IMG/VR virus record: IMGVR_UViG_3300037516_001233
Location: 62,001 to 126,000 of that record
Strand: one strand, 5' to 3'
DNA: 64,000 nucleotides
From: a virus
Positions within the stretch are counted from its first letter, which is position 1, and each line of letters opens with the position of its first letter. The notes below the pieces were generated by a model. It did no database searches. It was not told the DNA's origin and was given only the letters and a program-made list of their open reading frames with translations. A program made the position numbers and the translations under genes. Of the stretch, positions 1,358-41,917 are shown piece after piece.

Positions 1358-4061
1358 TTACCAAACCGGAGAAGATCCGACATATGTATAATTACTTCCA
1401 GGCCAAATCTGACCACCTAATGGTTTAGGTGTAGTTGCCGTTGTGGGTGTGGGTGAATTGGTGACGTGTTGATCTATAAAAGTTTTATCGCCTAACGAAA
1501 TAGCTACGTGACCATAGTTACTATTACCCCCAGTGCCACCGGTCCAAAATACTAAATACCCAGCTGGAGGATTGTCCCCATATAATGTACCTGGTTTACA
1601 AAAGGATGTACGATCTTTTATTGATTCGTAATGCGATTGCGCAGTATCATGTGAAGTCAGATTGCTAGATGGTCTTTTATCTCCATCTTTCCTATCCCAT
1701 TCTTTTGTAAACAAATCTCTTTTGACTGGACCAAATAAACCAATTCCAGCACCGAGCCTACTAGCAAAAGCCTCGCAGCCAAAGGCATTACCAGTCCTTG
1801 CCTCCCATGGATCTAACCTATTAGTCCTTAACCAAATTGCAGCTTCTTTAATTTGTGTTTTAGTAAATGTTGGAATCCCTCCAGCAGCTGTTTCTGGTAC
1901 TGTCGATATGTCACCGTTAGTTTTAAATACATACCCTGCTAACCATTGGTCTAAAAATTCTTTACTGGATCTAAGATTCTTGTCTGTTCCCTTTTTCTTT
2001 ACCCAAGACTTAAGGTCTTCCGCTGTTTTCCCTGGATTATTGGCTAGATAATAGTTTACCGCTGTTTGGAACTTAAGCCCCCTTAGCCACCCTGCTGGTG
2101 GTCTTTTGCTTGCACTGTACGCTTCTCCAACTTTTCCTTCTGTCCCATATTCTCCCCAGTTCCACCACATCCACATATCTTTTCTTTTGGCGGTTAATTC
2201 TGACAACAAGAATATTTGGGTTAGGGCATTCCATAATCTTGGGTCAGAATGCAACTTTCCTTCACTAATACCATAATCATCTGGCTTTTTAGGATTAACC
2301 TTATACCATTCTTTCATTTTTGCTATTGCAGTAGTTTGATCTTTCGTCCCATTTGCTTCCCAATCTTTGTCGATTAATTTATAACCACGACCAAGTACTT
2401 TTACTAATTTTGTGTTTGTTGAATCTAAGCTAACTAAAGTTAAGGCTTTAGTCAATAGACTTGGAATTCCTAAAAAGTTTACTTGCCAAAGACCAATTGA
2501 ATAATCACTAGTGCCCTTTGGCGTACCGGAACTGTCGTTAACTAGGCCATTGAATCCGCCAGGGCTAAAATTACTTTCTCTTTCCGCTATGCACATCCAT
2601 ATTGCAGCTGCTGCTGCACTGTATCCACCATATGTTACTAATGCTTTGTAGAGTGCGTTCTTATTCTTCAATGCATGTGTTGATGTTGGCCCTTGAGCGT
2701 AGCTTTGGCCAAGCTCGGAGATATCACCGGCATCTCCAGCAGGAGGGTCACCAGCATCTGGATCACCTTCACCTGATGAACCTTCATCTGAATCTACCCA
2801 GTCTTCATAAGAGCCAGCTCTTGCTGGGCCAAATGACATATGTATATGATCCCTATGTCCTGCATCTCCGGAAAAATTTATTCTAACTAACTCAGGGTAA
2901 TTTTTTATTATTAATGCAGCATTAGTGCTTGCAAAATCACCTTCAAAGCCATTGCCTATCCCATACTCAGTCATAAGTTGATCGTGAATCACTATTAAAT
3001 CAGGATGAAGATACTCTGGGACTGTCTTAAGCTTAGCTAATATTAGGTTTAATGCAGTTCTGTAAACATCTACGTTCTTACCAGCAAGACTAACTGCATC
3101 TGAGCTAGACCTTCCTACCATAGTTATGTCAAAAGCTCTACCAAATGTATGGTCAGATACAGTACCCTGATCCAACATGTTTCCTTGAGCTGCACCAGTA
3201 AAACCATTAGTAGCACCCAAGCTACCTTTTACATATAGCCCCGACCCACTGGACCCAAGGCAGAGTAAGAGCTCTACCATTGAAGCACAAGTGTAGGCTA
3301 CTTTACCGTCAATCCCCGTCCAATAGCTTTGATCAGTATTCAATATCGGGTTATTATTGTTATTAACCCCTCTAGATGCCGTAAGGTATATTTTTGAAGT
3401 AGAAGGTATTTTTGCTGAGTCAGTTGCCCTAAAAGTAAAAGCTAGTTGATTAATATCACTGACAATGCCAGTTGAAACTACCTGTTTCATTCTTTCCTCA
3501 AAAATAGTTTTTTCTTCGGGAGTTAATTGACTTGCTATTGTAACTGCTCTACCTGCACCAGATGCTGCTGTAGTCGGGTTAAAGCTACCAACCGTATCGC
3601 TATGCGGAGCTCCATCTGGGCCAACGCTATTGGATAAGTCGGTAAGAACGTTGGGCAGGTTATAACCTAGGCCTTGTTTGCCCAAGGACCCACTAGCCAC
3701 TATTTGGCTAAAGGCAGTAGATCCGAGTTAGGGTTGCATTGGCATTTTGTGAATTTGGGTCTGATATAACAATGCCCTTCCCTGATGCATCAGTTCCTGG
3801 GTTGGCTGCTAGTATTGAGGCAATGCTTGATTCTGTATTTTTTTGACTTATCTGTAGGGCAAAGTTTGGGCTTCTATATAATGCGTCTCCACCTAATATG
3901 CTTTGCAAGTCCCTTTGAGTCAGATGCCTGCTTGCTGCATTAGGGTCTTGGGAATAGGAAGTTTTTAATGGTTCTCCAGTTGGATAAAAACTTTCTGCTA
4001 CTTTTTTAGTTATTGTAGATGAGTCAGCCAAGTCATCTACATTAAATTTTAAATCATCCAT
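1358..4061 (-). CDS. Tail-associated peptidoglycan hydrolase with M15-like, lytic-transglycosylase-like and NlpC/P60- or CHAP-like domains, 900 aa, CGGA recoded
   Basis: The ATG at 4061 follows GGAGCATAAAAA. After 112 codons the frame reaches CGG (3723-3725) and then a stop five codons later. Reading CGGA as one unit continues into a long frame ending at 1358, 900 residues in all. Three enzyme-like regions follow. Around residues 300-410 are SDHTFGRAFD and GHRDHIH, the metal-binding pattern of M15/VanY peptidases. Around 490-530 are a Glu in AERES and DYSIGLWQVN, as in lysozyme-like transglycosylases. Around 760-855 are CEAFASRLG and YGHVAISLGD, the Cys/His pair of CHAP or NlpC/P60 peptidases. 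It probably opens the cell wall at the baseplate during DNA entry. The M15 and transglycosylase calls are firm; the third is likely. A start at 3700 without recoding would lose the N-terminal 120 residues and its ribosome site. Confidence 0.8.
3722..3725 (-). other. CGGA recoding site 2 (ACT CGGA TCT)
   Basis: This site sits in the tail hydrolase at codon 113. Zero frame would give Arg-Ile-Tyr-Cys-Leu-stop. The +1 reading gives Thr-[Gly]-Ser-Thr-Ala-Phe and runs on for 788 residues. The upstream part has its own ATG and ribosome site and no identity as a separate short gene. Confidence 0.75.
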
Positions 4062-4064
4062 TTT

Positions 4065-7000
4065 TTATGCTCCGTTTTTTCCTATTGCTAAAGTTTCACT
4101 TGATGTATTTATTGACGGCTGCTCTACTAATAGTCCGGAAGTATAAACTTTAGCTAAATTATTTACCACAAGTTCCCAGTTCAAAGAAGCTGGAGTCCCA
4201 TCATCATAGTATTCATCCCAAGCTATATTTGGCCAATCTGAAACTTTTTGATATATATCTCTGATTACTCTCATTGCAAAATATGTATTATATATCTTTA
4301 TTCTTGCATTTGTAGTACTTATAAAATTAGTTTTGCTCGCTGCATATAACTTGTAGTAGTCGACTAAAGACGTTGTTGATGTTGCGTCATAAATTTCAGT
4401 AAATCTATCATGAAACACTCCATCGTAGAAACTGTTTTTTAATTGAATTTTTATATCTGTATCTGATAAAGTTTTGTTTTTTACAAATAAATTATTTATT
4501 TCTAAACTTAAAGAATCTATTATTTTTTGAGTAGTTTTATAGAATATAGTTCCCAATACTCTTGACCCATAAATATCCTTACCATAGGAAACATAAGTAT
4601 TCTTTTGGGCTCCGGCTTCGAAGTCATCTTCGCCAACTATTGCTGTTATTTTTTTGGTATCTGGATTAACTCTTAACACTATTACCTTGTCTTTAATTGC
4701 ATTTAAGGTAAACAATGTTGAAGCTCCACCTGGCGATGTATTAAGTTTAAATTCAGTAGACTTATATGAATATACTGTTACGTTGCCAGTATAATTTTTT
4801 TCTTGAACATCTGCGTGCCTATATGGGATTGTTATATATCCATTTAAAAAGAGTCTATTACTTACAGCATAAACTGCTGATGCAGTAGTTCCAGATTTAT
4901 TATCTACGTTTACAGAAATGCCATAATCATTAGCTGCTGGATTGGAATCTACCTGAGTTACTACTCCTTCCATCCAATTAACTTCTGGAGAATTTTTGTT
5001 ATATATCTTAACTCTAGATCCAACATAAAAATCAGAATTAACAGCACTGGAAGATAGCTTAAATCTTTGTACGCCATTAGTAAAACTTGGAGTAATTGTA
5101 GTAGTATCTTTTATAGTTTCATATTGCTTTCCATTAATTGCTATTGTTCCATCTAGTATTAATGGTGATCCATTAAAGTTTGGAATTGAAATTCTAACTT
5201 TATCCCCAGTTTTACCATCATTTTCATCAGACCCTTGAAAGTAATTACTTGGGCTGTCAACTAAATCGCTAAATTCTTTAAGTGTTAAATCAAATTTAAT
5301 AAACATAATATTATTTTTAATTTTAATAGATTTTACATTAACAGTCTTAGGAGGAAGAGTGTCAGTATTAGATTTTACGATAGCTAATTCAGGTGTATCT
5401 ATTCCATCAAATCTAACCCTAAATGGGACCTCAGCCTTATCAAATATGTCTATAACATCAATTGTGTCACCGTCAATTACTTTACTGACTTTGCATATCA
5501 CTTTGAAAAATCTATTTAATCCTGTTTTTTCTGGTCCTATGCCAGAGTACTTCAACACCTGAGCATTAACCAATGCGTTCTCAAGGCTTATATATCTAGT
5601 AAGATCATTTATTTCTTTTTCTCTCCATCCAAGATTCTTAAGAAGATCATCAGTTCTAATATATTCATATCCTTCAACTGTTCTCACCTTAGTTGATGCG
5701 CCTAATATTCCTGGAAGAAGTTTCTTAGTAGCATATCTTCCCACTACCATTCCTTGGCCGCTTTGATTAAGTCCTGCGTCCATAGCTTGACCATTCTTAT
5801 TCAAGTATTGTATATAACATCCGTGTTGGTCAAGAACGTTATCTCTAATCCAACTCCAACCCTTCCAGGCGAGGCCTCCACCAGCACTACCTCCTATTAA
5901 GGCTGCACCACCAGCAAGCAATGCCCCACTACCAGGAACTGCAAGGGTTGCTATCGCTGTAGCAGCAGCTCCAAGACCAGTCATTGCCGCAAACATTGAA
6001 CCCACTCCACCTTTAGCAGATGGGTTATTAGTCTTATTGGCAACCATAGTCCTTACATTGTCATTAATATCTTGAAAACCTTCAGCAGTAAAACTCGCCA
6101 TTGCATCTTTTGCTATCGATGATGCTCCATGGGTGTATTGTATCCCGCCTACCATTTGAGTTTGCAATGATGAGGCCAAACCATCTACGCTTACTTGGGC
6201 TGATGCGGTAACGCCAGAACCTAAAGAGTTCATATATAGTCTAGTATCATTTCTTAAGGCTTGCATATGAAACCAAGTGCCAACCCATGAAGACATGAAC
6301 CATCTAGATGGATCATTAACTGTAACTAATGCGTTAGGAGTTATAGAAGTAATGAATCCAAGCTCAGAAGTAAAGTGATGTACTACTTGTTCTACTTCAA
6401 ACATGCCATACATTCTTTCATAAACATCAGCTAGATAGACAAGGTCGTGAGGTCTTATGTCGGCATTTCCCACTACTACAATCTCTCCACCATATATATC
6501 TTTTAGAGATTCCTTAAGGTGAGCTAGAGCTACTCTTCTAGCAGAAAGTTCATCCGGAGTTCCTTGAGCAAACTTTGAAATGCCTCTAGCAAATTCAAAA
6601 GGATGAAGTATTGGTTGAAGAGCTCCGAAGAGACCAGACCCACTTACGTTGTCGTAATACAAGCCAGTTTCTACTGTTTTTTCTACTTGCCTTTCAGACG
6701 GAGTAGATTTATCCATAGCTACAGTTACTGGGTATTTTCCATCCGATACTGCAGTGATACTAGTTGCAACTCCAGAAATATTTTCCTGAATTCCATTAGA
6801 TATGATGTGCGAGAAAGAACTAATGTAATGCATCCTCTGGAATGGTTCTCTGATTTCTACAACTGGCTCACCATATTCTCTTGTGAACGGATTATCTACA
6901 GCTCTTAATAGAGAGCCAGGTCTGCCCAAAGAATAATAAATCGAATCATTTAAAGCTTTGTTTAATATGTTAGCTTGTTTTGACATTTGACCAACTTGGC

Positions 7001-10000
7001 CAAGACCGTATCCCAACTGCATCATTGACATTCTAAATAAGTTAATTAAGCCAGACAAGCTGTCCCCAAGAGCGGTAAAAAGTGGACCAATATTTGCATC
7101 CCAGAAACCATCTATCTCTTCTCCCGCTTTGCCAACAATATTGGTAGCACTAGAACCTTCTCCTCTATTTTCTGCAAGTAACTTTCTAAATTTTTGAGCA
7201 TCTTTGCCATAGGTGGAGTTAGGATCTATGTAAGCTTGAAATATTTTTAGAACAGGATTAAAATCCCATTGATCATGACCTCTCATTTTACGGTTTGGCT
7301 TTAGCACTAGCCATGCTCTAGCATAAGGGTCCGACCACATTGTGTTTCTAAAAGCCCCTACTAAATATAGGAAAAGTTGTTTTGGAGTTTCTACAGTTCC
7401 TAAATAATCTTCTGGATCAACCCCAGCTAATTTTATTCCATCTGAAATGATACTCTTAATACCTTCTACCTTAGATGTAACTAGGTCATTAAAATATTCT
7501 ATTAGTCCGTCATTTTCTATTGATCCATCTATAAACTTCTGCCTAGACAAGTCAAGAGCCTGCTTAATCTTATCTCCATTTATCCCGGTTAGACCACGAC
7601 TTCTTTCCACTGAACTTACTGTTGTAGTAGCAAAGAAATCTTCACCAAACACTGCAGTAAACTCATCATCAGCACTATCGCCTGTATCCCCATACTTTTT
7701 AAAAATACTACTAGCACTAGTGGTATTTGCTCCGGAATCAGGTGGTGGAGTATCTGTGCCTATAGCAGCGCCAAGTGAACCAAGATCAATTAACTTCTCT
7801 TCGCTATCTGGGTCTAGCCCGTAGGCATTTTGGAAAGCTTCTTTTACATTGGTATATGTATGGTATCCTAATCTAAATTGATCCCAAATATCTGCTGCTT
7901 GCTGTAGCGTTCTTCCATCTCCAGCTAATACGCTTACTGATTGATCAAAATCTTCGTCATATAATTTTCTTGCATCTATTGAAACCATATCAGTTTCTGT
8001 GTAGACTCCAACAAATCTTTTTCTACCAATTGCTTCTTTGCCTTCTCCAGAATCAGCTGTCTCTTTATCTAAGATTGCTTTTAGCGAATCTCTAGAAAGT
8101 TCAGTATATTTGTTTTTCTTAACCAAGTCAAAATATCCACCCGTGGAAAGTCCTTCTTTACCCATTATATTTCCTGCTAGTTTTGCACTTCCCATAACTT
8201 CTATGGCAGTAGTATAGTCACTTGTTGTTTTATCGAAAGTAAATTGATAAGATTCTTTACCATTAATAAAATTTGGATTGATAATACTTTTGTTTCCCTT
8301 AAAACTTCCAAAGCCAATTATTTTTTTAGGCTTAACAAGTTCGCTAAGGTCTGTTGGTCTTTCAAATTCTTTTGATGGCAAAAATACATCTGGGACAACG
8401 CCCAATGGGGTGTCATCAGGGACAAATGCATAGAGGCATTTTCTTGGAACTGGGAACGGAGCTATGTTTGCTTTAGCCGCATTGATGATCGCAGTCTCTG
8501 CTCCGTGCCAAGAATCTTCCGACTTAGAGCTGTCCCCATCTTGCCAGAAAGTTGTTTCATTTGCAGTTAGATTTAACATACCCAAAAAATAAGCTGCATC
8601 GGGTGAGACTATTGCATCCAGTTCGACATCCAGTCCTAAGCCTAAAGCATTACCCCCACTACCCCCACTCTCCGTTTTTGGTTCTACAGTATTGCCGAAT
8701 TCATCTATGCCATCTCTAAGTCCTGCGTCTTCTGCATCGCTGTCTACCGTAGGTGCAAGTATGCTAACTTTTTTGTCGCCCCATAAAAAATAAGCTGGTT
8801 TACAAACTACTGCTATTCCAGTTGTAGGGCTATATACTAATACTTTTCTAGACTTATAATCTTGGACACTACCGTAAGTATCAGTTATGTTATGAATTAG
8901 TTTAAAGTTTTCTACACTCCAGTCATTAAGTCCTTCGCCTGGATTATATGGCCATCTCATAGCTATGTAGAATTGCTCCTCCAACGCCGTCATTGGAGAT
9001 CCCCATTCCATTATGGAAGCAGCGTTGTTTGCTCGATTGATTGTTTTTCCAATAATCGCATACTCTCTATCGGCTCCGTCTATTACAGGCGCATTATTTT
9101 TTCTTAGGTCTGGGTACGGCATTCTGATAACGTTTTCAGATCCCATTGTTGTTTTATTTTTTTCAGAATAAATATAAGCTGATGCGTCTTCTAGTTCATT
9201 GTTGAAAGAAAGAGTAGCACTTAACTTAAACTTTAATCCTATCCCAACCTCATTTGAGTTTCTGGTGTTTGTAGTATCTACTGTATTGATGCCTGTAAAA
9301 ATAGAAGCTTCTAGTTTTAACAGTTTGATCCATTCAGTTTCCTCTTTTTTTGCGCCTACAGTGCCATAGGCCCAATCATCTACTGCCAAAGTCATATAAT
9401 CAGCTCTGTGATTATTCCATTTACCAAGTTGATTGCTTAAAGCATAATATGCATAGTCCTCTAATACTATTCCATCTTCTCTGTCGGTAAAAAATGGAAA
9501 CCTATATCTGTAAGGAAGTTGATCTATTTGTTTATGCTGCGCTAGTTGTTCTTTACTTAAATCTACTACGATATCTGTCCCATTTCCAGTTATAGGTAGG
9601 TGATAGCCAACAGTAGCATATCCCGAATCAGAAGGGAGTTTAGATACTACTTTGCCATCTTTCTTATAATAGATTGAAGATGCAACACCAAATGCTACAA
9701 GTCTTCCAGCCAACTTCTTACCTGGGGCATATAGCTCTATATTGCCAGATGTTCCACCTTGTGCTCCTAGTATAGTGTCTATTGGTACTAGGGTTTGATT
9801 GGCATTTCTAAATGCTTCTGCATCAGCGAAAGGGTTAGATTCCTTATTCAATGAGTTGATAATCTCTTGAGTATTCTGGTCTATGTCAACCATTCTTGGA
9901 TAATTTACTCCGGCATTTTGAGCTCTTTGGTCAGTGTCAAAACCAGCAGTAAGTGGTACTACGCCTGATGTGTACAGCCAATGAGGCTTTCCGTAAAATA

Positions 10001-13000
10001 CAGTAGATCTATCTTCAAATGGTCTAATCGCCACAATGTAATTTGGAAGAAGTCTTGCGCAAGTTTGAAATAAGTCCCAAACACTTCTCATATAAGTTTG
10101 TGCTCTAAAAGATACTTCATCTAAACCAGGAAGATCATCATCCATCCCAGAAGTAATGCCCATCGCATTAAATATATTAGCTCCACCCCTACCACTTAAA
10201 ACACCCGTTAAACCAATAGCTGCGCCAAATACTGGAGCTCCAAGAGCAGCAACACCAACACCTGCAAGCACTATCCCTCCACTGATTATGCCACTTGTTA
10301 AAGAGGCTGATCCATTACTGTTTCTAAGCTCGTTACCTACATTGTAAGCGTCCATTACTGAAGTTGCAGTTTGGTTACCTTGTCCATATGCAGTAGTTAA
10401 GTTGTTCCAAGCTACATCTGTGGCTCTTCCTATATAATTAATTCTTTCGTTAGGTTTATCTTCTGGAGTTAAGCTTGCAATTGTAGACCAACCGTCCCCT
10501 AAGTCTCCGCCTAAGAACTGGGCAATGCCTGTCCCATTGCCTGGGTATATATTTCTTTTGAATATTTCAAAATCTCTTTGGGTAGAAAAATTAGCCCATA
10601 AAGTTTTCATTAAAGAAACGCCAGGAACTCTAATTTCTGGGCCAATTCCATTTAAAGATCCTTCTCCATCATTGGTTCCGGAACTCAATACCCCAATAAC
10701 AGAACCTGCCCCAAATAGATTTCCACTTCCAGTACCTAGAGATTCAAAGGCATCCTTGACAGATGCAGTGACTGCATCATTTTTTGCTTGTTCTAAATCA
10801 TTTAAAGGCTGATAAAGTATCGAACCAAAATGTCTAATTCCAAATTTATTTTCAGAAAAAATAGTTCCTCTAGTTGCATGAGCTAAAGCTTCTCTACTCC
10901 TGGAGGAACCCATAGACAATAGTCTAACCATTAAATCTCTGGGTTCCGATAACCAAAACCCAGTATTGATTCCACCATCAATCTTGCCGCTATCACCTTT
11001 TTTATTAGTACTATTAACGATAGGGCTTAGCTCTATTGCATCTGACTGAGCAGTGATGGTAACTATTTCTCCGTTTTCAACTTGGGTGATAACTCCATTG
11101 AAGACTGTTTGTAGCGAATTGGGATTAGACCCATAACCAGCTCTTAAGTGTACTCTAACACCAGGTTTAAGTCTAATATTATTTATGTCAACAACAAATG
11201 TGCTGTCCATATGATTCTGTAAATTCATTGATCTGTTTAGGACATTGGCAATTACTGAATCCATAGCATCTTGAGTTGATACTTGATCATTATAAGATTC
11301 ATCTGTTTTATCAAATAATGAATTTGAAGCTGGTGTTGTTAGCTTGGAATAAAGATTAGAAACTCTTAACATCAAAGTGTCTCCAAGAATATCTTCAGAT
11401 TGAACTATAGAAAAATCTATAATAGATTGAAGTCCATAAAAATTATCAAAAAGTTTTACTCCGGCAAAATATCCACCTTCATCAATTAACCAAAGCATAT
11501 AAGTTGGGAACGCTCTCAGCATTCTTCCAGATATATCCCTGTATTGAGTATCTATAAGCATCTTTTCCCAATGCTTAGTGGTACTAGGCACTTTGGACTT
11601 TGTAGCCATTACCTCTGGTTTATCTGCACTGCCGTTAGAGTAAGGGTCTGCATAGTCGGCTGGGGTTGATCCAGCAACACCGGTGTGTGTTTTTTGTCCT
11701 GGCGAATAGGATTTGGATGGAGAGTCTACGTCCTGATGAGATATAGGGATTGGCCTATATCCAATTTGTCCGGTACTTTCTGATTTAGTAACCTCTACTC
11801 CGTCAATAGTTAAATAGAATTTATTATTCAGTTTACTCATGTAGCCTAAGTGATAGCCCATAGCGGTGGTAAATATTGCAGGGACTTTATCTTCCGATGT
11901 ATTCTCCTGTGCTGGCAATAGAGTAATTACGTGATGTATTCCTAAATTGTCTGGGTTAAAAGATATGTAACCGTCTTCATCTCCTGTACCTTTTGCTCCT
12001 GATAAATAGGAATTTAATTCATTAATCTTAGATTGATCACTAGATACAATGTCTCCAGCTTTTAATTCTATTCCAGTAGCATTAGAACCTATTTCATATT
12101 CGCTACCAAAAATAGCTACAGTGCCATCAATTTCAGGGAATTCTTTTATATAATCAATTATCAATTGCTTTTTTTGATTATTAAAAAATTGTTTAATTGC
12201 GCCCTCTACGTATGATACTGATTCTCTTGCGCCAATTCCTTGTTCTTCAAAATATTTTTTTAGTTCTGATATTTTATCATTTTTTACAAAATCTTTAATT
12301 GCATTCATAATAGCTACATCAGCTTTAGCTTGTTCTGAACTTGAAGCAGTATTATATTGTTTTGGAGTTATAATAAAATCTTTATTTTTTTCAGTTTGAA
12401 CAGTTATGTTATTTATAATATCTCTATCAAACATTTCAAAAGATCTAAAATAATAATCAGGATCTAAACATCCTACTACTTCCCCTTGATCATCTTTTAT
12501 AGTCAAAGGGAAGTCGGGGTAGGCGTTGAATGCTCCCCATAGTTGCTTTATTCTTAGAAATGGATTTTTTTTAGTTTTAAAAGTATCTACCATTTCCTGT
12601 TGTTGCTTGGAAGAAAGCTGCTCTCGTTGTTGCTGAAATATATCAAAGTCTACAAAGGACATTTTTACATCATAAACATGAGGGAAATTTGGTATTGTAT
12701 TAACCTCATAACTTAGTGGCATAACATATTTCATGCCTGCTAAACCAGCTATGATATTTTTGATTCCCATAAAACCTATTACGCCAGCAGCGTGCTCTAA
12801 TCTAGCTAAGCCATTTATATGTTCAAAAACATTTCTTATTTTTATTAATTCTTTTTCACCAAATATAGTCATTGATATATTAAGATAAGTGTCTTTTCCA
12901 CCTATGTGTTGATAGGTTGGTTCTTCCTGCATTTGAAGTTGCATTTTAGCTAGGTTATTTCCAAGGGTTACTGAAACTCCATTGACAATAACAGATTTAG

Positions 13001-16000
13001 GGTCAAGGTCAACCTTAATCATTGGGACTTCCCACTCATTAAAGGTTGCTACACCATTGCCAAAAATTCCTCCATCGCCAGATCGACTCCTGCTTAATCT
13101 ATATTTTTCTAGAGTATCTTGCATTGGTCCACTCTTGAAAAATCTATTATAAAATAAAACAGTAAATGCTCTACCTATATCTTTTTCAGAATCCTCTAAA
13201 AATTTACTTATTGGTAAACCAGTTCTTAAAGATTTTTCTGTAGCGTCTTGTAGCGCCAAGCTATCCAAATAGGATTCAGTTCCCTTGGAACTTTTTTCAA
13301 ACAATATTCTAACTTCTTGCAAGTTATAGCTTTGATTAGGTTGGCCTTGTCTTTCCAGAATGAGGTTTTTATTTTTGAACTTATATACCTGAGCCCTAGT
13401 AGTAAAGTGTTGTGGTATTTTATTTTTTTCTGCTGGAACAACTCTTAAATAATTGATTTCATTTTGGTTTAATTTATTTTTATTTTCTAGAACAAATGAA
13501 GTAACAAGATACTCATATATCCTTTCATTATATTCACTTTCTTTTATTGATACTTTTAGAGAATTAGCTGATGGCGCGGAATCAAATGTAACCGTAATCG
13601 ATCTATTAGAAGTTGCTTCCCAAGCGGTTGGAATTAAACCATTTGGAGAAGCTGCTTCTATAACGGTCACGCTTACATTTTTGGTATTAAAATTATGCGG
13701 AATAACAAATGAAGTCTTTGTTCCATCCCCTATTGTTACGATTTTAGCTGGCCCAGATAAAAGAGGAGAGGTTGCCCCTGCTACTATTAATTCTATTGCA
13801 TTTAGAACTAACTTTCTAGCGCTAGGTGCTACTGATCCTTCTATTGAAGTTTCAACTACAGAATCTAAATCTCTATGATACTTAGATGACTGGTTAATAT
13901 CAATTCCCAAAGATTTTAATCTAGCATCCCAGAAAGATCCTCCTAAATCTTCCATTTCTCTTTCTTGAATCGATCTAAAAGAAGATGTATCAGGAGTGAA
14001 TAATTTACTTTGAGTTTGAGCTGGAATAAATAAACTTATATTGTTTCCATTTTTCCACTCTTTAATAACGTTTGTATTAAAGACGTCGTTGGTAAAAGGA
14101 TTTGTTAAAAGATCTGGTTCATATATATTCTCTATATTAGAATCAGATGGTGGCACAGGGGTAAGTGAGTTTGATATCGTAAGACCATCTTGAGTTAACC
14201 CTGGTGAGTAGTTTGCCGAACCAGGAGAAAGTGAAGCAGGAGTTACGGTTGTCGCATCAGGGACTGCTTTTTCCATAAAGAACGAGGCATTAACATATGA
14301 GTGGAGTGATCCTGCGGCTTTGCCCATATAATGTCTATACTTGCCCCAATGTACTGCTTGATTAAAATCCTTAATCATTGGAAGGAAAGGCTTATGGTTA
14401 AAATTCAATAGCTCAAGATCTACTACAACAGCAAACGGATAGTTTGGTATTGTAGAAATACTCATTGAAGAAAGAGCAACTCCGGTAATGCCATGTACGG
14501 TATTGAGATAATGATTCTTAACTGGAAGTATTGGAGCATACTTAAACGCTGCAATTAAACCCCTTAAGGAGGATAAGAACTTATCTATCTTCTCTTCTGA
14601 TTCTCCTCCAACTTTAAAGTCAATCTTAAAGTCATTAGTAAGCTTAACTTCCTTAATGCCATCAATTGTTATTCCCCAAATTTCTTCATAGTTAGGGAAA
14701 AATAACTTTAGATTAATCGAAGTCTGTTTGTATCCAGCGTTAAACTTGGGAGAACTTTTTTGTCTAATTGCACCACCTGTAAGACTACCTGTTTTGAATT
14801 GAGAATTTACTTCTATTGAAATTGGTGGAACATAAAAGTTTGCAGCACCTAATCTAAAATGAAAAATATCTGGAGTTTTTGGTGGTATATTTTCCCTAAA
14901 AGGAAATTGCTCTAAAGCTTTTCTTATCTTTTGTCCGGTATTTTCTATTGCCCAAGCAGCTTGGAAAATAGGCTTTCCATCTTTATCAGTGCCAAATGCT
15001 CTTAATAAACTTCTTGCTAATTCGTCCGGATTATTTATAGGATCGTCTTGACTACCTGCGCTAGGATTGTAATCTGCCGCAGCTGCTATTGCATTAAAAA
15101 ATAATGTAATTAGGTTAGGAAAGTATTTTTGTATTACAGCTAGTGTTATTGGATCTCTAGTTAGATTAGTAATGGCATTGGTAAGATCGTTCAACCACAT
15201 AGTGTCTCTTACCGGGTCTATTGCATTTGCTATAGTACCTTTAGCTCCAACCGTAAGATTTGTTCCTACGCTAAACCTTTTCCTGGCAAAATCTGAAATC
15301 GAATTTACCTGCAAAGCTAACTCTAGCAAACCGCTCAATTTAATTCTATTCCAAATATTTTTTACATATTTATTATTATCATCAATATTATTTAAATCTT
15401 CGGCAAATATTCTATAAAAACTTTTTTTAGTTTTATCTAGCTTAGGATCATCCCTAAGAACCCCTGGATACCTTGTTGCAACTTCTGACCTTAAATCAAA
15501 ACCAATTCCCGCTTCAGCCATAAAGTTTTTGAATTGAGACTCAGCAACCACTGAGTTAGCATCTTCTACGGCATCAGCTTCTGGGGTAGCTACAAATTCC
15601 GCAGCACCTGGTTCGTAATTTTGTAACTTATCTTTAATAGCTCTTAATGCAGCGAGCGATCCAGCAAAACTATCTCGATAAGCAACTTTTACAAAATTAT
15701 TAACACCAGTTACCCTGACAGCATTTTCCACATAAATATTAGCATCAGAAGCGTCAAATGCTTCTTTTTTAAGAAAAACCCTAAACATGTAATCTGTTAT
15801 AGCTTTGTTGCCATAAACGTCGTTTAATTTTGTAGTTGCAAAGACATTATCAAAAATAAAAATATTAACAAATACCTCCGATGGAACCTGTACAATAATG
15901 CCACCATCTCGAGGCTCAGTAACTGGATACCTTGGAGTACCCTTTCCTGCATCTTCTATTGCTTTAATTTTTGCATAAACTGCTTTTATTTTAGTTATAG

Positions 16001-16280
16001 TTGCTGGACTTCCTGGCTTTAGATTTGTCCCATCATTAAAGCCTTCATAGCCATTTTTTAAAGACTTCCAGGTATAGAAAAATAAATTATTTTCATCATT
16101 TATATTATTATATTTATTTTTAAATGCTGTACTTGAATCTGATTGTATAATTGATTTTATTTCATTCAAAGCCCTTTGGCCTATGTTTATTAGATTAGTT
16201 ACATCAGCTAAAATTGCATCATATTTAGCTTTGTCCAAAGCCTTCATGAACGCAGTTACTTGAGTATTTAAACTAGTCAT
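4065..16280 (-). CDS. Giant baseplate hub / tail tip protein, 4,071 aa, with a split thermonuclease-like domain
   Basis: One uninterrupted frame of 4,071 codons without a single CGG. Visible regions in order: two related beta-rich modules (about residues 470-660 and 1090-1240) that both contain a 'YxxxxIPNFPxVxxVxxxFxxF'-like pattern; between them (about 843-910) a small beta domain with GDGTKTSFVIPHNF; a hub-like segment (about 1640-1755) with VDINNIRLKPGVRVHLRAGY and VFNGVITQVENGEIVTITA, as in gp44/late-control-D-type hub proteins; Gly/Ala-rich hydrophobic stretches at about 1990-2035 and 3430-3477; and near 3587-3637 a thermonuclease signature (KVIDGDTIDVI, VRFDGIDTPE). It overlaps the start of nothing downstream but is only 3 nt from the tail hydrolase. 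It probably forms the central tail tip or hub; the size is exceptional. The hub role is inferred from position and the central motif. Confidence 0.7.
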   Translation of the reverse strand: MTSLNTQVTAFMKALDKAKYDAILADVTNLINIGQRALNEIKSIIQSDSSTAFKNKYNNINDENNLFFYTWKSLKNGYEGFNDGTNLKPGSPATITKIKAVYAKIKAIEDAGKGTPRYPVTEPRDGGIIVQVPSEVFVNIFIFDNVFATTKLNDVYGNKAITDYMFRVFLKKEAFDASDANIYVENAVRVTGVNNFVKVAYRDSFAGSLAALRAIKDKLQNYEPGAAEFVATPEADAVEDANSVVAESQFKNFMAEAGIGFDLRSEVATRYPGVLRDDPKLDKTKKSFYRIFAEDLNNIDDNNKYVKNIWNRIKLSGLLELALQVNSISDFARKRFSVGTNLTVGAKGTIANAIDPVRDTMWLNDLTNAITNLTRDPITLAVIQKYFPNLITLFFNAIAAAADYNPSAGSQDDPINNPDELARSLLRAFGTDKDGKPIFQAAWAIENTGQKIRKALEQFPFRENIPPKTPDIFHFRLGAANFYVPPISIEVNSQFKTGSLTGGAIRQKSSPKFNAGYKQTSINLKLFFPNYEEIWGITIDGIKEVKLTNDFKIDFKVGGESEEKIDKFLSSLRGLIAAFKYAPILPVKNHYLNTVHGITGVALSSMSISTIPNYPFAVVVDLELLNFNHKPFLPMIKDFNQAVHWGKYRHYMGKAAGSLHSYVNASFFMEKAVPDATTVTPASLSPGSANYSPGLTQDGLTISNSLTPVPPSDSNIENIYEPDLLTNPFTNDVFNTNVIKEWKNGNNISLFIPAQTQSKLFTPDTSSFRSIQEREMEDLGGSFWDARLKSLGIDINQSSKYHRDLDSVVETSIEGSVAPSARKLVLNAIELIVAGATSPLLSGPAKIVTIGDGTKTSFVIPHNFNTKNVSVTVIEAASPNGLIPTAWEATSNRSITVTFDSAPSANSLKVSIKESEYNERIYEYLVTSFVLENKNKLNQNEINYLRVVPAEKNKIPQHFTTRAQVYKFKNKNLILERQGQPNQSYNLQEVRILFEKSSKGTESYLDSLALQDATEKSLRTGLPISKFLEDSEKDIGRAFTVLFYNRFFKSGPMQDTLEKYRLSRSRSGDGGIFGNGVATFNEWEVPMIKVDLDPKSVIVNGVSVTLGNNLAKMQLQMQEEPTYQHIGGKDTYLNISMTIFGEKELIKIRNVFEHINGLARLEHAAGVIGFMGIKNIIAGLAGMKYVMPLSYEVNTIPNFPHVYDVKMSFVDFDIFQQQREQLSSKQQQEMVDTFKTKKNPFLRIKQLWGAFNAYPDFPLTIKDDQGEVVGCLDPDYYFRSFEMFDRDIINNITVQTEKNKDFIITPKQYNTASSSEQAKADVAIMNAIKDFVKNDKISELKKYFEEQGIGARESVSYVEGAIKQFFNNQKKQLIIDYIKEFPEIDGTVAIFGSEYEIGSNATGIELKAGDIVSSDQSKINELNSYLSGAKGTGDEDGYISFNPDNLGIHHVITLLPAQENTSEDKVPAIFTTAMGYHLGYMSKLNNKFYLTIDGVEVTKSESTGQIGYRPIPISHQDVDSPSKSYSPGQKTHTGVAGSTPADYADPYSNGSADKPEVMATKSKVPSTTKHWEKMLIDTQYRDISGRMLRAFPTYMLWLIDEGGYFAGVKLFDNFYGLQSIIDFSIVQSEDILGDTLMLRVSNLYSKLTTPASNSLFDKTDESYNDQVSTQDAMDSVIANVLNRSMNLQNHMDSTFVVDINNIRLKPGVRVHLRAGYGSNPNSLQTVFNGVITQVENGEIVTITAQSDAIELSPIVNSTNKKGDSGKIDGGINTGFWLSEPRDLMVRLLSMGSSRSREALAHATRGTIFSENKFGIRHFGSILYQPLNDLEQAKNDAVTASVKDAFESLGTGSGNLFGAGSVIGVLSSGTNDGEGSLNGIGPEIRVPGVSLMKTLWANFSTQRDFEIFKRNIYPGNGTGIAQFLGGDLGDGWSTIASLTPEDKPNERINYIGRATDVAWNNLTTAYGQGNQTATSVMDAYNVGNELRNSNGSASLTSGIISGGIVLAGVGVAALGAPVFGAAIGLTGVLSGRGGANIFNAMGITSGMDDDLPGLDEVSFRAQTYMRSVWDLFQTCARLLPNYIVAIRPFEDRSTVFYGKPHWLYTSGVVPLTAGFDTDQRAQNAGVNYPRMVDIDQNTQEIINSLNKESNPFADAEAFRNANQTLVPIDTILGAQGGTSGNIELYAPGKKLAGRLVAFGVASSIYYKKDGKVVSKLPSDSGYATVGYHLPITGNGTDIVVDLSKEQLAQHKQIDQLPYRYRFPFFTDREDGIVLEDYAYYALSNQLGKWNNHRADYMTLAVDDWAYGTVGAKKEETEWIKLLKLEASIFTGINTVDTTNTRNSNEVGIGLKFKLSATLSFNNELEDASAYIYSEKNKTTMGSENVIRMPYPDLRKNNAPVIDGADREYAIIGKTINRANNAASIMEWGSPMTALEEQFYIAMRWPYNPGEGLNDWSVENFKLIHNITDTYGSVQDYKSRKVLVYSPTTGIAVVCKPAYFLWGDKKVSILAPTVDSDAEDAGLRDGIDEFGNTVEPKTESGGSGGNALGLGLDVELDAIVSPDAAYFLGMLNLTANETTFWQDGDSSKSEDSWHGAETAIINAAKANIAPFPVPRKCLYAFVPDDTPLGVVPDVFLPSKEFERPTDLSELVKPKKIIGFGSFKGNKSIINPNFINGKESYQFTFDKTTSDYTTAIEVMGSAKLAGNIMGKEGLSTGGYFDLVKKNKYTELSRDSLKAILDKETADSGEGKEAIGRKRFVGVYTETDMVSIDARKLYDEDFDQSVSVLAGDGRTLQQAADIWDQFRLGYHTYTNVKEAFQNAYGLDPDSEEKLIDLGSLGAAIGTDTPPPDSGANTTSASSIFKKYGDTGDSADDEFTAVFGEDFFATTTVSSVERSRGLTGINGDKIKQALDLSRQKFIDGSIENDGLIEYFNDLVTSKVEGIKSIISDGIKLAGVDPEDYLGTVETPKQLFLYLVGAFRNTMWSDPYARAWLVLKPNRKMRGHDQWDFNPVLKIFQAYIDPNSTYGKDAQKFRKLLAENRGEGSSATNIVGKAGEEIDGFWDANIGPLFTALGDSLSGLINLFRMSMMQLGYGLGQVGQMSKQANILNKALNDSIYYSLGRPGSLLRAVDNPFTREYGEPVVEIREPFQRMHYISSFSHIISNGIQENISGVATSITAVSDGKYPVTVAMDKSTPSERQVEKTVETGLYYDNVSGSGLFGALQPILHPFEFARGISKFAQGTPDELSARRVALAHLKESLKDIYGGEIVVVGNADIRPHDLVYLADVYERMYGMFEVEQVVHHFTSELGFITSITPNALVTVNDPSRWFMSSWVGTWFHMQALRNDTRLYMNSLGSGVTASAQVSVDGLASSLQTQMVGGIQYTHGASSIAKDAMASFTAEGFQDINDNVRTMVANKTNNPSAKGGVGSMFAAMTGLGAAATAIATLAVPGSGALLAGGAALIGGSAGGGLAWKGWSWIRDNVLDQHGCYIQYLNKNGQAMDAGLNQSGQGMVVGRYATKKLLPGILGASTKVRTVEGYEYIRTDDLLKNLGWREKEINDLTRYISLENALVNAQVLKYSGIGPEKTGLNRFFKVICKVSKVIDGDTIDVIDIFDKAEVPFRVRFDGIDTPELAIVKSNTDTLPPKTVNVKSIKIKNNIMFIKFDLTLKEFSDLVDSPSNYFQGSDENDGKTGDKVRISIPNFNGSPLILDGTIAINGKQYETIKDTTTITPSFTNGVQRFKLSSSAVNSDFYVGSRVKIYNKNSPEVNWMEGVVTQVDSNPAANDYGISVNVDNKSGTTASAVYAVSNRLFLNGYITIPYRHADVQEKNYTGNVTVYSYKSTEFKLNTSPGGASTLFTLNAIKDKVIVLRVNPDTKKITAIVGEDDFEAGAQKNTYVSYGKDIYGSRVLGTIFYKTTQKIIDSLSLEINNLFVKNKTLSDTDIKIQLKNSFYDGVFHDRFTEIYDATSTTSLVDYYKLYAASKTNFISTTNARIKIYNTYFAMRVIRDIYQKVSDWPNIAWDEYYDDGTPASLNWELVVNNLAKVYTSGLLVEQPSINTSSETLAIGKNGA

Positions 16281-19700: not shown

Positions 19701-21543
19701 ATCTAAAAACATTTTCCATGACTGGCTCCATTATTCCTTTTCTATCTCTAGCTACTTCAGATTGAACAAAGCTCATTAAGTAGTTCGACAATTGCGGCAT
19801 TTGTCTTATGTCTCTACCGCTTTCTAAGGCTTCAATTAGAAGATTAGCATAGCGTTTAGATCTTTCTGCACTTGTTCTAAACTCGGAAGGGAGTGCATCA
19901 ACCGCCATATCTGATGCTGCATAAATTTGTTTTCTTAATCTTTTATCTATATTACCTGTCTTTAAAGCCTCTTGATAAGAAGCTAGAATTCTATTGCCTC
20001 TTTCCATGGTAGAATCTATTGCTTCTTGTGAAGAAAAAATTTCACCATGGAAAGCAGGTGCAAGTGGATCTTGAAAAACTAAATCTTTTGCCTTGCCCTG
20101 TAGGATTATATTAGCCATATCAGTTTTACCCATAATAGCTAATTCTTTTTTTATATTAGCCTTAGAGGTAACTGTAGTATATCGACTTAATCTAGAATCT
20201 AGTTCAGCTGTTGTTCCAACTCCTTTAATGTTAAATGTTCTACCATTTCTCATGAAATTAAATCGAATAGTTTCTGAGTCCATTCCTGATGCAGAATTGG
20301 CTATATCACTTCTTAGAAATTTCATTTTTTCATATTCTTCTGGACTTAGATTGGCAGTTCCCTTCTTCTCTAGCACTTTCAGTTCTGCTTGCATGTTTTT
20401 TCGTATGCCGTCTAAAAATTTTTTGTTTATAAGAGTAGAACCATCATATGGCCTTTGGAATTGCTCCATTAAGTTTTCATACCTTTTTAATGCTTCTCCC
20501 TTTAAGTCTTTTGCTTTTGATGGATCTTTTAATGCTTCTATTATTTCCGGGTAATCATTTGTTAATCTTGCTATGCCTCCATCTTTAGTTGATACAATAC
20601 CAAGGCTTTCCATAGAATTTAATGCAGATTGAACAGCATTGGAATTTCCATAATAAGCAGCTGCTTCATTTATTTCTCTAGCGGAAAGTCCAAACATTGC
20701 TTTCTTAACTAAAGCTTCTCCACTAAGAGATGTATCTTCTAAATAAGCTAAAGCTATTTTGGTTAAATCACTTGATGTATCAAATATTTTAATAGAATCA
20801 CCAAAGGTACTATGAGTAGAATCCAAGCCCTTAGCTAAGCTAAGTAAATCGTTTCCAGCTAAAGAAATTCCATCTAAAGAAAAAATACCCTTACCTCTCT
20901 TGGCTGCTTTTTGAAACAGTTCTCCCAACTTCCCCTCTTGCAGAGATTTGAGTATTTGCTCATTTGAGAATAATCCACCGGCACCATCACTAGTTTTATA
21001 TAAAAGTTCGTTGAGTTGAACATCAGTTAGTTCTTCCCCATTAACAAAAGCTCTAACAAAGGTTCCAGAGTCTTTTGTTTGAAACATAAATCCTCTTCCT
21101 TCTGAAACATCTTTCAAAACATTTTTTGCTGTTTCTTTAGCTCCTTCTGGGATTCTAGCTGACCCTATACTGAAGCTTAGTTGATCAGCCGGAGAATTAA
21201 TAAAAGAAAGAGAATCCCTAAGAGTACTATCAGTTCTTAACATTTCCCTCATAGATCTAACTCTTTCGTTAAATCCCCCTAATCCTCTCATCGAACCGGA
21301 CTGTCCAGGGCCGCCTCCTGTCACTCTAGCGAAACCAGTTAAACCAGAAGTATCTGCTGCGTTGAATGCTTCTTCATAGGTATTGAATCTTATCCCAGTA
21401 GCATTCATAACATAAGTTATTTTTCCAGAATCAATTTCTACCTTGATAACATTACCTGAACCGTAGATAGTATTCTTCAAGGCTCTTCTATGCATTTGAA
21501 GATATTCAGGAGCATAATAACTAGGAGGAAAATTCATTGGCAT
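16744..21543 (-). CDS. Large tail/internal virion protein, 1,599 aa, tape-measure-like
   Basis: A 1,599-residue, mostly helical protein rich in Ala, Leu, Glu and Lys, with a C-terminal hydrophobic helix (KAGYAGLAIIAASFAY, about 1475-1490) followed by a Pro/Gly/Ser-rich tail. It starts at the ATG overlapping the stop of the 2,214-residue gene upstream (TAATG). No catalytic motif was found. Its size, helix content and place between the larger tape-measure candidate and the hub suggest a second component of the tape measure or a protein ejected with the DNA. Both this gene and its upstream neighbour end with a hydrophobic segment and a Gly/Pro-rich tail, so they may share a design. The assignment is contextual. 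Confidence 0.55.
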   Translation of the reverse strand: MPMNFPPSYYAPEYLQMHRRALKNTIYGSGNVIKVEIDSGKITYVMNATGIRFNTYEEAFNAADTSGLTGFARVTGGGPGQSGSMRGLGGFNERVRSMREMLRTDSTLRDSLSFINSPADQLSFSIGSARIPEGAKETAKNVLKDVSEGRGFMFQTKDSGTFVRAFVNGEELTDVQLNELLYKTSDGAGGLFSNEQILKSLQEGKLGELFQKAAKRGKGIFSLDGISLAGNDLLSLAKGLDSTHSTFGDSIKIFDTSSDLTKIALAYLEDTSLSGEALVKKAMFGLSAREINEAAAYYGNSNAVQSALNSMESLGIVSTKDGGIARLTNDYPEIIEALKDPSKAKDLKGEALKRYENLMEQFQRPYDGSTLINKKFLDGIRKNMQAELKVLEKKGTANLSPEEYEKMKFLRSDIANSASGMDSETIRFNFMRNGRTFNIKGVGTTAELDSRLSRYTTVTSKANIKKELAIMGKTDMANIILQGKAKDLVFQDPLAPAFHGEIFSSQEAIDSTMERGNRILASYQEALKTGNIDKRLRKQIYAASDMAVDALPSEFRTSAERSKRYANLLIEALESGRDIRQMPQLSNYLMSFVQSEVARDRKGIMEPVMENVFRFSIDSELAYYSGRKTTGIEKATLEDVSNFRLSSKSGAQEIGLMNFKIRGHKMLTSGNAANIFHHSLGTFDLDDKGIPMMRVMDIFGERGEKIGERIGFFTIRQPTGPAEYVLSMAQFDTETIRATFGKNQSYVATLNRVVADGTATLDQQLLHRIVSPEDMTAKEMMAFDTRHAQMFRNQASIHETMIKTMEQSETPIARISQDIVNDLIGEKYGSTLAMSKDKYDRLLGAGFDEKQLMANYRQGNIFKLFAESGAYDFEKDSIQQILDETSLFSSSERAEIGRLSAIDGEGVKIQSALAKMMQTGTPEQVAKKELFISNLTAREFGIKQLRAAETADSLGLYINRLTMVTASTRQGDEILKHLDAADVLKLKQNYKVGLIDPGQAIDYAITMNSRASVDANISRQHYTEEVYNALTSSIRNSTEKGADLRGIQLALAKLTGKAGSDATGVLNQVGTQAIEEQGRYIGALRALAYKKGIEDPDLLAGVDQLMLKQRLKAGDNAAYLRGIIEGFEANSSEIDPANELANKFINTLRNAGDSDTEINNTLVNTIGIRSGKYAALSQMSENAARVTAGIRAAGQTFGMDRGKPFMGEAVLTAEGRKAASQVLNLQDKMSQELDEMFSGAVNGAADMSEQAAFRNSIESEMMGQKLHASILDSAKNTNSSIQEVIDSIDTMSSMRRGMDLTSYRSGGDDPDELAKLVQGARDSRAMSHYKRKNGLMDLVDQYDALKSSGVPKKQLIAYDTLNTYRKAYGFEPEINLAMEALKVGDDKDIKDLGLSDNFANQVRDIRSASRIRESLTPELQDLLSQRGSAINLAPSVLDDLDRAAMVGDEAMDGVGGGGGIGNNYKRIGDSFRDGAMKKAFENPTIRKAGYAGLAIIAASFAYQHSKGRTPEDVGGPPLLPGGSAYEQMPQRSPQMPQTSMFSGYNQGTSYSVNLEGSSDQINSFRSAAGSVAPGSVNSTMYKGLPNLGSDPYSQIASSF

Positions 21544-24500
21544 TATCTAACTCCTGCATTAATATTAATTGAATTTGATCCATAAGGATTTTTTACCGGC
21601 GATACTGATCCAGAAACTCCCATGCGAGACATCATTGCTCTAAGCTGAGCTCCCGTATCTTGACTATTGTTTCCTCCAAAGAAAGAAGGATAAGATGGAT
21701 TAGCTAAATTAGCTTCACGTATCTGTTGTGGATAGTAACCCATTTGAGACATTTCAAGACCCATTGAAGCACCAGTTTTAATCTTTACATGTTCAAGATT
21801 GGTATTTGGGTGCCAACCTTCCCAGTTTTGAGATGGCAATTCGTGTCTAGAAAAATAATCAGCTAAATCAGGCTTTTCTTCTACTGGCATTCCCCAAGCT
21901 GATTGATAAATTCTTCTTTCCAATCTTCCTGCTGTTGAAAGAATTTTTTCTCTTTCATTTTCTGGAGCATTAATCATTGCCTTAAAGTGTTCTCTTTTTC
22001 TTTTTGGAACTGAAAGGGAAAGTGTTTCTAATGATGGAGTTTCTAAATCAGCTCCATACATAGTTCTTTTTGCTGCTGTTTGGAAACTAGTTGCTGCTGC
22101 TGCATCTCCTGATGCTTGAGCTTGATTTGCTAAACTTGTATTTTTTACATAACTTAAAATATCAGTATATTCTTCAAGTGCTAATTCTTTTTTTCTTGTT
22201 TCTGGGATAAACCTATCACCAGTTATAGCTTCATGCAAGTTGCCTCTTATTGAGGAAGCAAAGCCAGCTGCTCCGCCTATGATGGAGCCTAAAGTCTTAC
22301 CTCTCATGCCTTTACCAAACATAGAGCCTGCTGCTGCCATTGCTGCTGTTGCAACTATTGGATTTCTTTGAGAAGCTTTATTAACCATTGGTTCAATAAA
22401 ACTCTCATATGGCCTTTGCCACTCAGGGAAAGTAGAGCCATAAACATTTCTTCTTTCCCAATCTTCAGTGGCAGTTCTTTTGTTCATGAATTTAGTATTA
22501 AAGAAAGTATCTCTATGTGCTAAGTATTCTCCAATTCTACTTGCTGTATGAAGTCTAGGATTCATCCCCATTTCTTCAGCTGTAGAATCTTTATACTTAT
22601 ATGGAGTAAAATCATATTTACTTGTAGTGTCTGCTACTTGATCTCTTATTGTTTGTACTTTTAATTTTTCATCAGGAGAAAGAGAACCAGTTTGTATTTG
22701 ATTATTTAAAGATCTAAATTGCTTAGAATAAGGAGCTATATCAGCAAGGATATCTAATTGGTTTAGCTTTCCATATTTTCCAGTTTCGTCAGCGGAGACT
22801 GTATTAAATCTTTCGTACCCCTTTCCAGGAAGTCTGATTTCTCCATCAGCAACTTTTGTAAATGGATCTCCTCTTTGAAAGTCAGTAAAATATTCAGCTC
22901 CTGGCAAGAACGGATATTTCTCTCCCATAGTATTTCTAATTGGGTTAATATAATTAACATTAGATCTTTCTTTTGGAATAAATCTTCTAACCACTTCAGA
23001 AACTTCAAGATTACCAAGAGCTCCTTCTCCACCCATAGGAGCATCACCAAGTCCACCTAAGTTAAGGTCCCAGAATGATCTCGTTGAGCCATACCCCTTT
23101 GCTGCTGATTGTAAAACTGATCTTTGAGGCTCATAGTCACTTTGTCCAAATCCAAATGATTCTCTTACTTGACCAAAAGCAAAACCATAGATACCAGCCA
23201 TTTCTTGGGCTCTATACCCTAATTCTCCAGCTTGTATTCCTAGCTTATTGGACTCAACTGGTTCCCCAGCGGGAACTAACGAAGGACTCATTATGCCACT
23301 TACTTTAGGTGGACCATAGCCAACGGCATCTCTTAGGGTAGAGTTATATCCACCAATAGTTGACTTAACCTGCCTGCTAGCAGTTCCCATTGGGGCGGAA
23401 GCCTGAGATAATCTTGAGTTATAGTTCCCAATAGCCATCGTTGAGGAGCCGTATAAGCCACCTCCAGAGGATCCAGTGCCACCGTACCCCATGCCACCGC
23501 CAAAACCCCCCTGAGAAGCTCCCATGTAGCCTGTGGAGTCATATGCTCCAGACTCTCCAGCTCTTTGGTAGCTAGCTAAACCTTGCTTTAGCTCATCTTC
23601 GTGCATTTTAATTTGAGGCTTAAGCAGTTTTCCAACTGTCATATTGGCTAGAGCAGTAGCTGGACCAAATGGTCCCGTAAAGTATTCGCCACTAACCGGG
23701 TAAGGTCTATCTTCGTAGTGTTGACGCTCAAATCGATATGGGTCAAGTGGCCTTAATGGAGAGAAATCATACCCATAAGCTAACTTTTCTAAAGGAGACT
23801 CAAATGAATCAGATGTGTAGGTTCCAGCTTCTTTAAGTTTGCGATAATACGATGGACGATAGTACATTGTTTTTCCACCCATAAAAGGTGTACTACCCAG
23901 AGGCCAAAATCTACCTTGCTTAATAGGAACTTCGCCCTCAAGAAGTTGTTTCTTCTTTTCTTCGGCTGACATTCCACCAGGAATTAAACCTGCTCCTATA
24001 GCTTGGGTCTCAACTAGACCCCTTGCTATCTTTGTTGTAAAGAATGGAGAATAAACTCTTTCTCCATTTTTATCTTTTTCATTTGTATAGCCACCGATAG
24101 TTCTATCTGCAGCTAGTAATGTTGTACCTCCAGCAACAATTGGTAATACTCTTTTGCCGACCATGCCACGCATGTACATGTCGACTGGTCCGCCATATTT
24201 ACTTTGATCTAATTGTAAACCGAACGTACCAAAATATTTATTAACTCTAGAAACAAGATGAGAGCTAGCTACTGATCCAGTAGAGAATGCATCTTGGTTT
24301 TTATAGGTTCCAAATCCCATTGCGCTTTTAATGGCAGCTGCTGGGCCTCTCTCAAGAGCTGTTCCAAAAGTTGGGATAAAAGTAAAGTCTTGACCAGTAC
24401 CAAGAGTGTTGACAGCGTCTTCGCTTATTTGGTATGGAGCAGAACCAAATCTTCTTTTTACAAACGGTAAAGCTCTAGAGAATGGCCTTCTGATTGAAGC

Positions 24501-38347: not shown

Positions 38348-38355
38348 GATGTTCC

Positions 38356-40160: not shown

Positions 40161-40198
40161 TTGGCCCTAAACTGCCTTTGACAACTTGACTGTATAAT

Positions 40199-41368: not shown

Positions 41369-41380
41369 CTTGACTCCTAG

Positions 41381-41602
41381 TTACAGTGAAGATATTTTAT
41401 TGTCTATATCTTTTATCTTACAGATTATATCATAGATATCTTTTTGAGCCGTGCTGTTTTCGGCGGGTATGAAACTATCTTCATCAAACTCTTCCGGGTC
41501 TATCTCTAATATAGATAGCCTTAAGATTAAAGCTCTTTCAAATTCTATTTTTACAGATTCATACGCTTCTTTTTTCTGTTCAGAAGATAAACTAAATCGC
41601 AT
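41381..41602 (-). CDS. Small acidic helical protein, 73 aa (paralogue A)
   Basis: A 73-residue acidic protein with EIDPEEFDEDSF in the middle, flanked by helices (KKEAYESVKIEFERALILRL and ICKIKDIDNKISSL). The next gene upstream shares AIDPMTFDEDSF at the same relative place and a similar helix layout, so they are tandem duplicates. No function can be assigned. It is spaced by 2 nt from its paralogue. Confidence 0.65.
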   Translation of the reverse strand: MRFSLSSEQKKEAYESVKIEFERALILRLSILEIDPEEFDEDSFIPAENSTAQKDIYDIICKIKDIDNKISSL

Positions 41603-41604
41603 GC

Positions 41605-41862: not shown

Positions 41863-41889
41863 AAGCGTTCCTTCGGATTCTGGGCATAT

Positions 41890-41917
41890 AGTATATATAG
41901 TACTAAAATTTTTGTAA
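41890..41917 (-). promoter_or_regulatory. Sigma70-like promoter candidate before the small paralogues
   Basis: On the minus strand TTACAA (41912-41917) and TATACT (41890-41895) are separated by 16 nt, about 28 nt upstream of the start at 41862. The surrounding gap is very AT-rich, so chance matches are possible. Confidence 0.35.

Follow-up and report, generated by a model that had tools for sequence, protein, structure and literature searches.

We report here that the C-terminus of a giant phage tail protein carries a staphylococcal nuclease (SNase) fold that lies in three pieces, split by inserts of 216 and 109 residues. The protein is encoded in a 64,000-nucleotide stretch of viral DNA, referred to here as the window (positions 62,001 to 126,000 of IMG/VR record IMGVR_UViG_3300037516_001233, the full record being 154,849 bases), and is the predicted baseplate hub of a contractile-tailed phage. 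The catalytic and calcium-ligand positions of the SNase superfamily are present. We favour, at a probability of about 55%, the reading that the hub C-terminus works as a nuclease carried by the virion, with the cell envelope as its place of action; its activity, calcium need, substrate and place of action are what we infer.

An SNase fold in three pieces

The initial annotation had placed the first half of an SNase-type domain near residues 3587-3637 of the hub, and this half was found there (piece A; Table 1), with D19, D21, R35, D40 and E43 (SNase numbering) at residues 3603, 3605, 3623, 3628 and 3631. Residues 3569-3636 match PHROG 452 (endonuclease), at an E-value of 1.8e-5 when the full-length protein is scanned and of 8e-7 when only its C-terminal part is; the first half is hit by this family in 30 of 42 relatives as well. 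A search for the signature D[GA]D[TS]..R..[DN][TA][PA]E found it once in the hub protein and in none of 2000 shuffles. The YGR-like half expected about 270 residues further on is likewise present: the later motif, YGKDIYGSRVLG, lies at about residues 3899-3910, and the equivalent of R87, R3907, is set by the motif DIYGSRVLGTIF. Profile-profile comparison (hhalign) with free-standing phage SNases gave an E-value of 1.9e-6. When relatives with short inserts were compared in this way, hhalign, unprompted, aligned b1 through b5 and paired the motif with the R87 site, YxRxLGxI falling on YGRxLAxV (E 2.9e-6), and its next alignment placed LNWDLVTKGLAN on the a2 helix.

Structure prediction, the check that had been proposed for this domain, points to the same fold. 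The model of an insert-free relative, L059 (predicted TM score 0.79), is one SNase domain; in Foldseek its top PDB matches were staphylococcal nuclease entries (probability 1.00, best E 5.6e-4), and the first 32 PDB matches were all of SNase fold, Tudor-SN among them. The window's own model was used as a query as well and was replaced by L059, its matches having been dominated by the insert. It matches SNase over about 40 first-half residues (34-36% identity, root-mean-square deviation of about 1.8 Å, probability up to 0.92), and no more than this first half aligned, because the insert interrupts the domain. This restricted alignment, the gap of 270 residues and the silence of Pfam could be taken to mean that two unrelated folds contain SNase-like words by chance. 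Such an explanation is scarcely credible, and is refuted by the insert-free and short-insert relatives, which form one contiguous SNase domain. We class the window domain as an SNase fold homologous to the SNase superfamily and not as a canonical member of the Pfam family PF00565. A sequence-profile search of the PDB returned nothing meaningful, and tblastn of the hub C-terminus in named phages gave no match. Among 71 matches from a pattern search of cellular genomes there was no relative, and therefore no clue to the host.

That a beta-rich insert splits the domain, as first supposed, was borne out; that there is a single split was not, since the a2 helix makes a second one and the large insert is itself nested. 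Measured from TPEL to SPGG, the length of insert 1 is 216 residues for the window and 219-220 for L002/L003; it falls to 119 in L005/L006, to about 100-110 in L016-L026 and to 15-42 in the rest. By the tree, the large insert arose a single time, in a clade of 13 rows with the active site kept. The inner segment of about 91 residues is seen only in the window, L002 and L003/L004 and is cleanly absent in L005/L006, from which the nesting follows; it has no match in named phages, nor elsewhere in the loci compared. Scans for the identity of insert 1 gave weak E1_FCCH, phage-tail and Tudor-like matches only, and we describe it as beta-rich and probably fibre-like. The region of insert 2 shrinks to about 45 residues in L194, L203, L206 and L208.

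Piece C is the least firmly placed of the three. The conserved hub end, DGTPxxLNWELVxNxLAxVY, resembles the SNase a2 region, and piece C alone aligns to LNxDIVxxGLA of free-standing SNases, with 1 of 200 column shuffles scoring equally high; adding it to a joint profile of pieces A and B did not raise the score. We assign it on the grounds of its placement, this shuffle test and the short-insert relatives. Taken together, a compact enzyme fold here tolerates two inserts, one of them nested.

Table 1. Features of the hub protein and its surroundings in the window
Feature	Hub residues	Window position	Strand	Basis
SNase piece A (b1-b3); D19 D21 T22 R35 D40 T41 E43	3591-3632	5385..5510	minus	PHROG 452; Foldseek; hhalign
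Insert 1 in b3-a1 loop, 216 residues, beta-rich	3633-3848	4737..5384	minus	most relatives have 15-42 residues here or none
Inner insert nested in insert 1, ~91 residues	3722-3812	4845..5117	minus	comparison of relatives
SNase piece B (a1-b4-b5); R87 equivalent R3907	3849-3916	4533..4736	minus	family alignment; hhalign of short-insert relatives
Insert 2, helical, ~109 residues; ends in conserved SxWPxxxWDEYY	3917-4025	4206..4532	minus	predicted helices; shorter in relatives
SNase piece C (a2 helix), least firmly placed; DGTPASLNWELVVNNLAKVY	4026-4051	4128..4205	minus	alignment to LNxDIVxxGLA of free-standing SNase
Giant baseplate hub protein (predicted), 4071 aa		4065..16280	minus	ORF; PHROG 20474/8809; tblastn; BFVD
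Hub core common to 0305phi8-36-type hubs	1571-1819	10824..11570	minus	hidden Markov model match and core alignment
Two tail-sheath genes		31998-33266 and 34141-35796		upstream of hub gene
Upstream 2214-aa protein, probably tape measure		21543..28187	minus	size and position between sheath genes and hub
Downstream gene, 780 aa, probable wall hydrolase		1358..3700	minus	weak tail-lysozyme and CHAP/NlpC-like Pfam matches, sub-threshold, E 0.001-0.1
aa, amino acids; ORF, open reading frame.

Active-site conservation and spread among phage hubs

We surveyed the active site in 57 unique relatives of the hub C-terminal domain from viral contigs, the window included. D21, T22, R35, E43 and R87 are kept together in 40 of them, and the window is one of the 40. 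Its catalytic arginine, glutamate and arginine, whose conservation the initial annotation had proposed to check, are R3623, E3631 and R3907, and the calcium-ligand positions D21 and D40 are D3605 and D3628. The remaining 17 lack T22, E43 and R87 as a set, with no partial row, and two of these also lack R35 and D21. In a tree built without the active-site columns the 17 form one clade (support 99), corresponding to one loss event. Many relatives have N at position 40, where the window has D; we considered N here as a sign of decay and ruled this out, as all free-standing phage SNases compared also carry N.

The ratio of nonsynonymous to synonymous substitution rates (dN/dS) is 0.05-0.10 on pieces A and B for the window against L002/L003, and equally low in the clade that lost its site, where measurable, so that constraint on the fold holds whether the active site is present or lost. 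For the insert, dN/dS among the window, L002 and L003 is 0.12-0.29. In other C-terminal hubs inserts of 112-172 residues occupy the same loop, with the first-half residues intact, and a long stretch is likewise inserted after E43 in a second N-terminal hub group (L144-L196). The events counted above are two, mapped on the tree of C-terminal relatives only; the loop has probably received inserts, and the active site has probably been lost, on more than one occasion each.

These data bear on the proposal that in the window's lineage, too, the domain serves as a structural module of OB fold, its residues kept for folding or nucleic-acid binding and not for catalysis. Such a role would fit the purifying selection under which the site-less clade retains the domain, the decayed appearance of part of the second N-terminal group (L145, L154, L170) and of L212, and the frequency of OB-like modules in hubs. 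However, T22, E43 and R87 vanish jointly, as expected of residues that serve one reaction, and the same residues are retained in N-terminal and mid-protein copies of other hubs. We therefore think a purely structural role in the window unlikely, and the pattern suggests that both roles, cutting enzyme and structural module, occur in different clades.

The domain is widespread. A scan with the hub core found 195 relatives, 80 of which were fetched; removal of near-copies left 57 non-redundant hub cores (Acinetobacter phage ME3 was left out, its core match being too short). An SNase lies within the hub open reading frame (ORF) in 42 of these 57, C-terminal in 22 and N-terminal in 20. Fifteen have none on the same ORF: L188 and L203 carry it on a neighbouring ORF, L191 is cut off, and about 12 are truly without it, eleven of them in one clade whose named members are annotated as glucosaminidase or lysozyme proteins. 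The SNase sits near the N-terminus in the hubs of Bacillus phage KLEB27-3, Moorella phage MTATph1, a Cytobacillus phage-plasmid and a Bacillus velezensis phage-plasmid. Three consecutive ORFs make up the hub in some relatives (L007 657-11155; L188 5651-16797; L203 1029-10921), which may reflect genuinely divided genes, introns or errors in the sequence; an ORF of 218 amino acids encodes the SNase separately in L203. The window's record also holds a free-standing SNase gene, outside the window (G000:C1:32336-32629, L001), with N at position 40, and similar free-standing genes of about 137 amino acids occur in most related viral records.

A hub with an attached SNase has been described once before, in the Bacillus thuringiensis israelensis phage-like element BtI1, as a homologue of gp147 of phage 0305phi8-36 (Hardies et al. 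2007, PMC2147016). Its authors called the reason for the attachment "not obvious" and suspected transfer from stand-alone genes; in the slot matching the SNase, gp147 itself bears wall-degrading domains (PMC2147016). BtI1 and the window thus have in common the hub family and an attached SNase domain, whereas the BtI1 domain, which we compared by its published description, is N-terminal and known from one sequence, and that of the window is C-terminal with two inserts and one nested. Beyond that single BtI1 case, the present survey finds the SNase in dozens of hubs, its catalytic residues conserved and, in one clade, lost throughout. The ME3 hub, ME3_37 (KU935715), is of the same hub family and has an SNase (Pfam E 4.7e-14), but it lies mid-chain beside an M23 peptidase and is without the large insert. 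KLEB27-3 (vB_BauM_KLEB27-3) hub gp035 is about 31% identical to the window over the aligned core, and it and the hubs of the Bacillaceae phage-plasmids pAD3 and pN497-ZHONG resemble the window in having an SNase with R35, E43 and R87; in contrast to the window, theirs lies near residue 150, ahead of the hub core. Staphylococcal nuclease (1STN, 2SNS) and the free-standing phage SNases (PHROG 452) agree with the window domain in fold, in strand and helix order and in D21, R35, E43 and R87, yet are free-standing, uninterrupted and about 140 residues long. In open-licence full texts we found no literature on virion nucleases of this kind beyond PMC2147016, relative to which the wide spread of the domain, the changes in its position, its split and nested layout and the loss of the active site throughout one clade are new.

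The hub gene and its genomic setting

The view that this protein of 4,071 residues is a tail hub, already put forward in the initial annotation, holds: the ORF is real, and the prediction that it encodes a 0305phi8-36-type tail hub in a contractile-tailed phage is well founded. This identity rests on several lines of evidence. The core aligns with those of seven named phage and phage-plasmid hubs (including KLEB27-3, MTATph1 and Bacillus/Paenibacillus phage-plasmids) with many positions in common. By tblastn, the middle of the protein matches the hubs of KLEB27-3, MTATph1 and ME3. These matches bear fitting annotations, "putative baseplate protein" in KLEB27-3 and "baseplate hub protein" in ME3, for which the depositors note homology to the hub of Bacillus phage 0305phi8-36. 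In BFVD, the predicted viral structure nearest to the C-terminal model is named "Baseplate hub protein" and is 82% identical. Families PHROG 20474 and 8809 are also common to the window hub and those of ME3, KLEB27-3 and MTATph1. Such a hub would consist of a core like that of T4 gp27 or P2 gpD with exchangeable side domains.

The surrounding genes follow contractile-tail order, with sheath, tape measure (by size and place only), hub and a lysin-like gene, and two very large proteins are encoded between the sheath genes and the hub gene. The two tail-sheath-like genes differ from one another within the one phage. Hub residues 848-912 (about 13545-13739) and a collagen-like fibre ORF (46036-48012) share a module, VGDGTxTSFVVxHNFxxxxVSVTVxEAASPxGLI..WEAT, which matches PHROG 2647 "head decoration" and suggests that modules are shared among virion proteins. 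Five genes for 2-oxoglutarate-Fe(II) oxygenases (prolyl-hydroxylase-like, PF13640) and one TauD-like gene (37541-45504) adjoin this collagen-repeat protein (PF01391), and hydroxylation of a collagen-like tail fibre is possible. A small ORF at 48025-48378 ends with about a dozen PYFPPYFPP repeats.

A proposed nuclease at the tail tip

Recurrence of the SNase in many related tail tips, with the cutting residues kept, very probably means that it has a job at infection. SNases are normally secreted enzymes that need millimolar calcium, and free calcium is low in the cytoplasm. Because of this, and because the slot is shared with wall-cutting domains, we favour action at the surface or envelope. 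The SNase would be held at the tail tip, where sister hubs bear their wall-cutting domains, and would cut DNA or RNA encountered at the cell surface or envelope during tail attachment and penetration. With such a calcium need it would cut outside the cell but do almost nothing in the cytoplasm, which would leave the phage's own DNA unharmed on its way past the hub.

Two other places of action deserve consideration. The hub forms the final gate ahead of the cell, and the domain or a fragment of it might enter the host cytoplasm with the DNA as an injected effector, attacking the chromosome or competing phage DNA early. The conserved active site and the releasable form seen in L203 and L188, with the SNase on its own ORF adjoining the hub, would suit this, but the host cytoplasm is poor in free calcium, the DNA of the phage itself would be open to attack, and the window domain is covalently within a structural protein of 4,071 amino acids in which no cleavage site was identified; we hold such an effector to be rather improbable. 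More doubtful still, and in our estimate very unlikely, is that the nuclease has the nucleic acid of the phage itself as its target, during assembly or DNA exit: contractile tails are generally known to have their hub on the DNA path, but no cleaved genome product is known, and many hubs (about 12 of 57) do without the domain.

Several points weigh against an envelope nuclease. In a single-sequence scan the Pfam SNase family (PF00565) stays below cut-off on the window protein, and it matches 6 of 42 relatives (E 0.002-0.1). Most of these phages own a free-standing SNase, so a hub copy is unneeded merely to possess the enzyme. Insert 1 adjoins the active site and could block it. The 17-member clade has lost the site with the domain still constrained, which means that the domain is useful without catalysis. 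Finally, we found no measured activity of a hub SNase in the open-licence literature, catalysis being read from sequence.

More broadly, and only tentatively, the tail-tip SNase may be a general, unrecognised infection component of this large group of long-tailed myophages, placed at the hub N-terminus, in mid-chain, at the C-terminus or in a neighbouring gene. It would attack host or competitor nucleic acid at entry, be tuned by repeated insertions in one loop, and occasionally decay to a structural part.

In conclusion, the puzzle raised in 2007, of why a baseplate hub carries a nuclease, now concerns a widespread family. The clade with an intact site and its sister clade with set-wise loss, the fold being kept in both, provide a natural contrast that makes the question testable. 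If active, the domain would equip the tail tip of the virion with a nuclease, and would bear on the passage of large phages through DNA-rich surroundings or on the handling of host DNA at entry, as well as on how a nuclease can be kept next to the point where the phage's own genome leaves.
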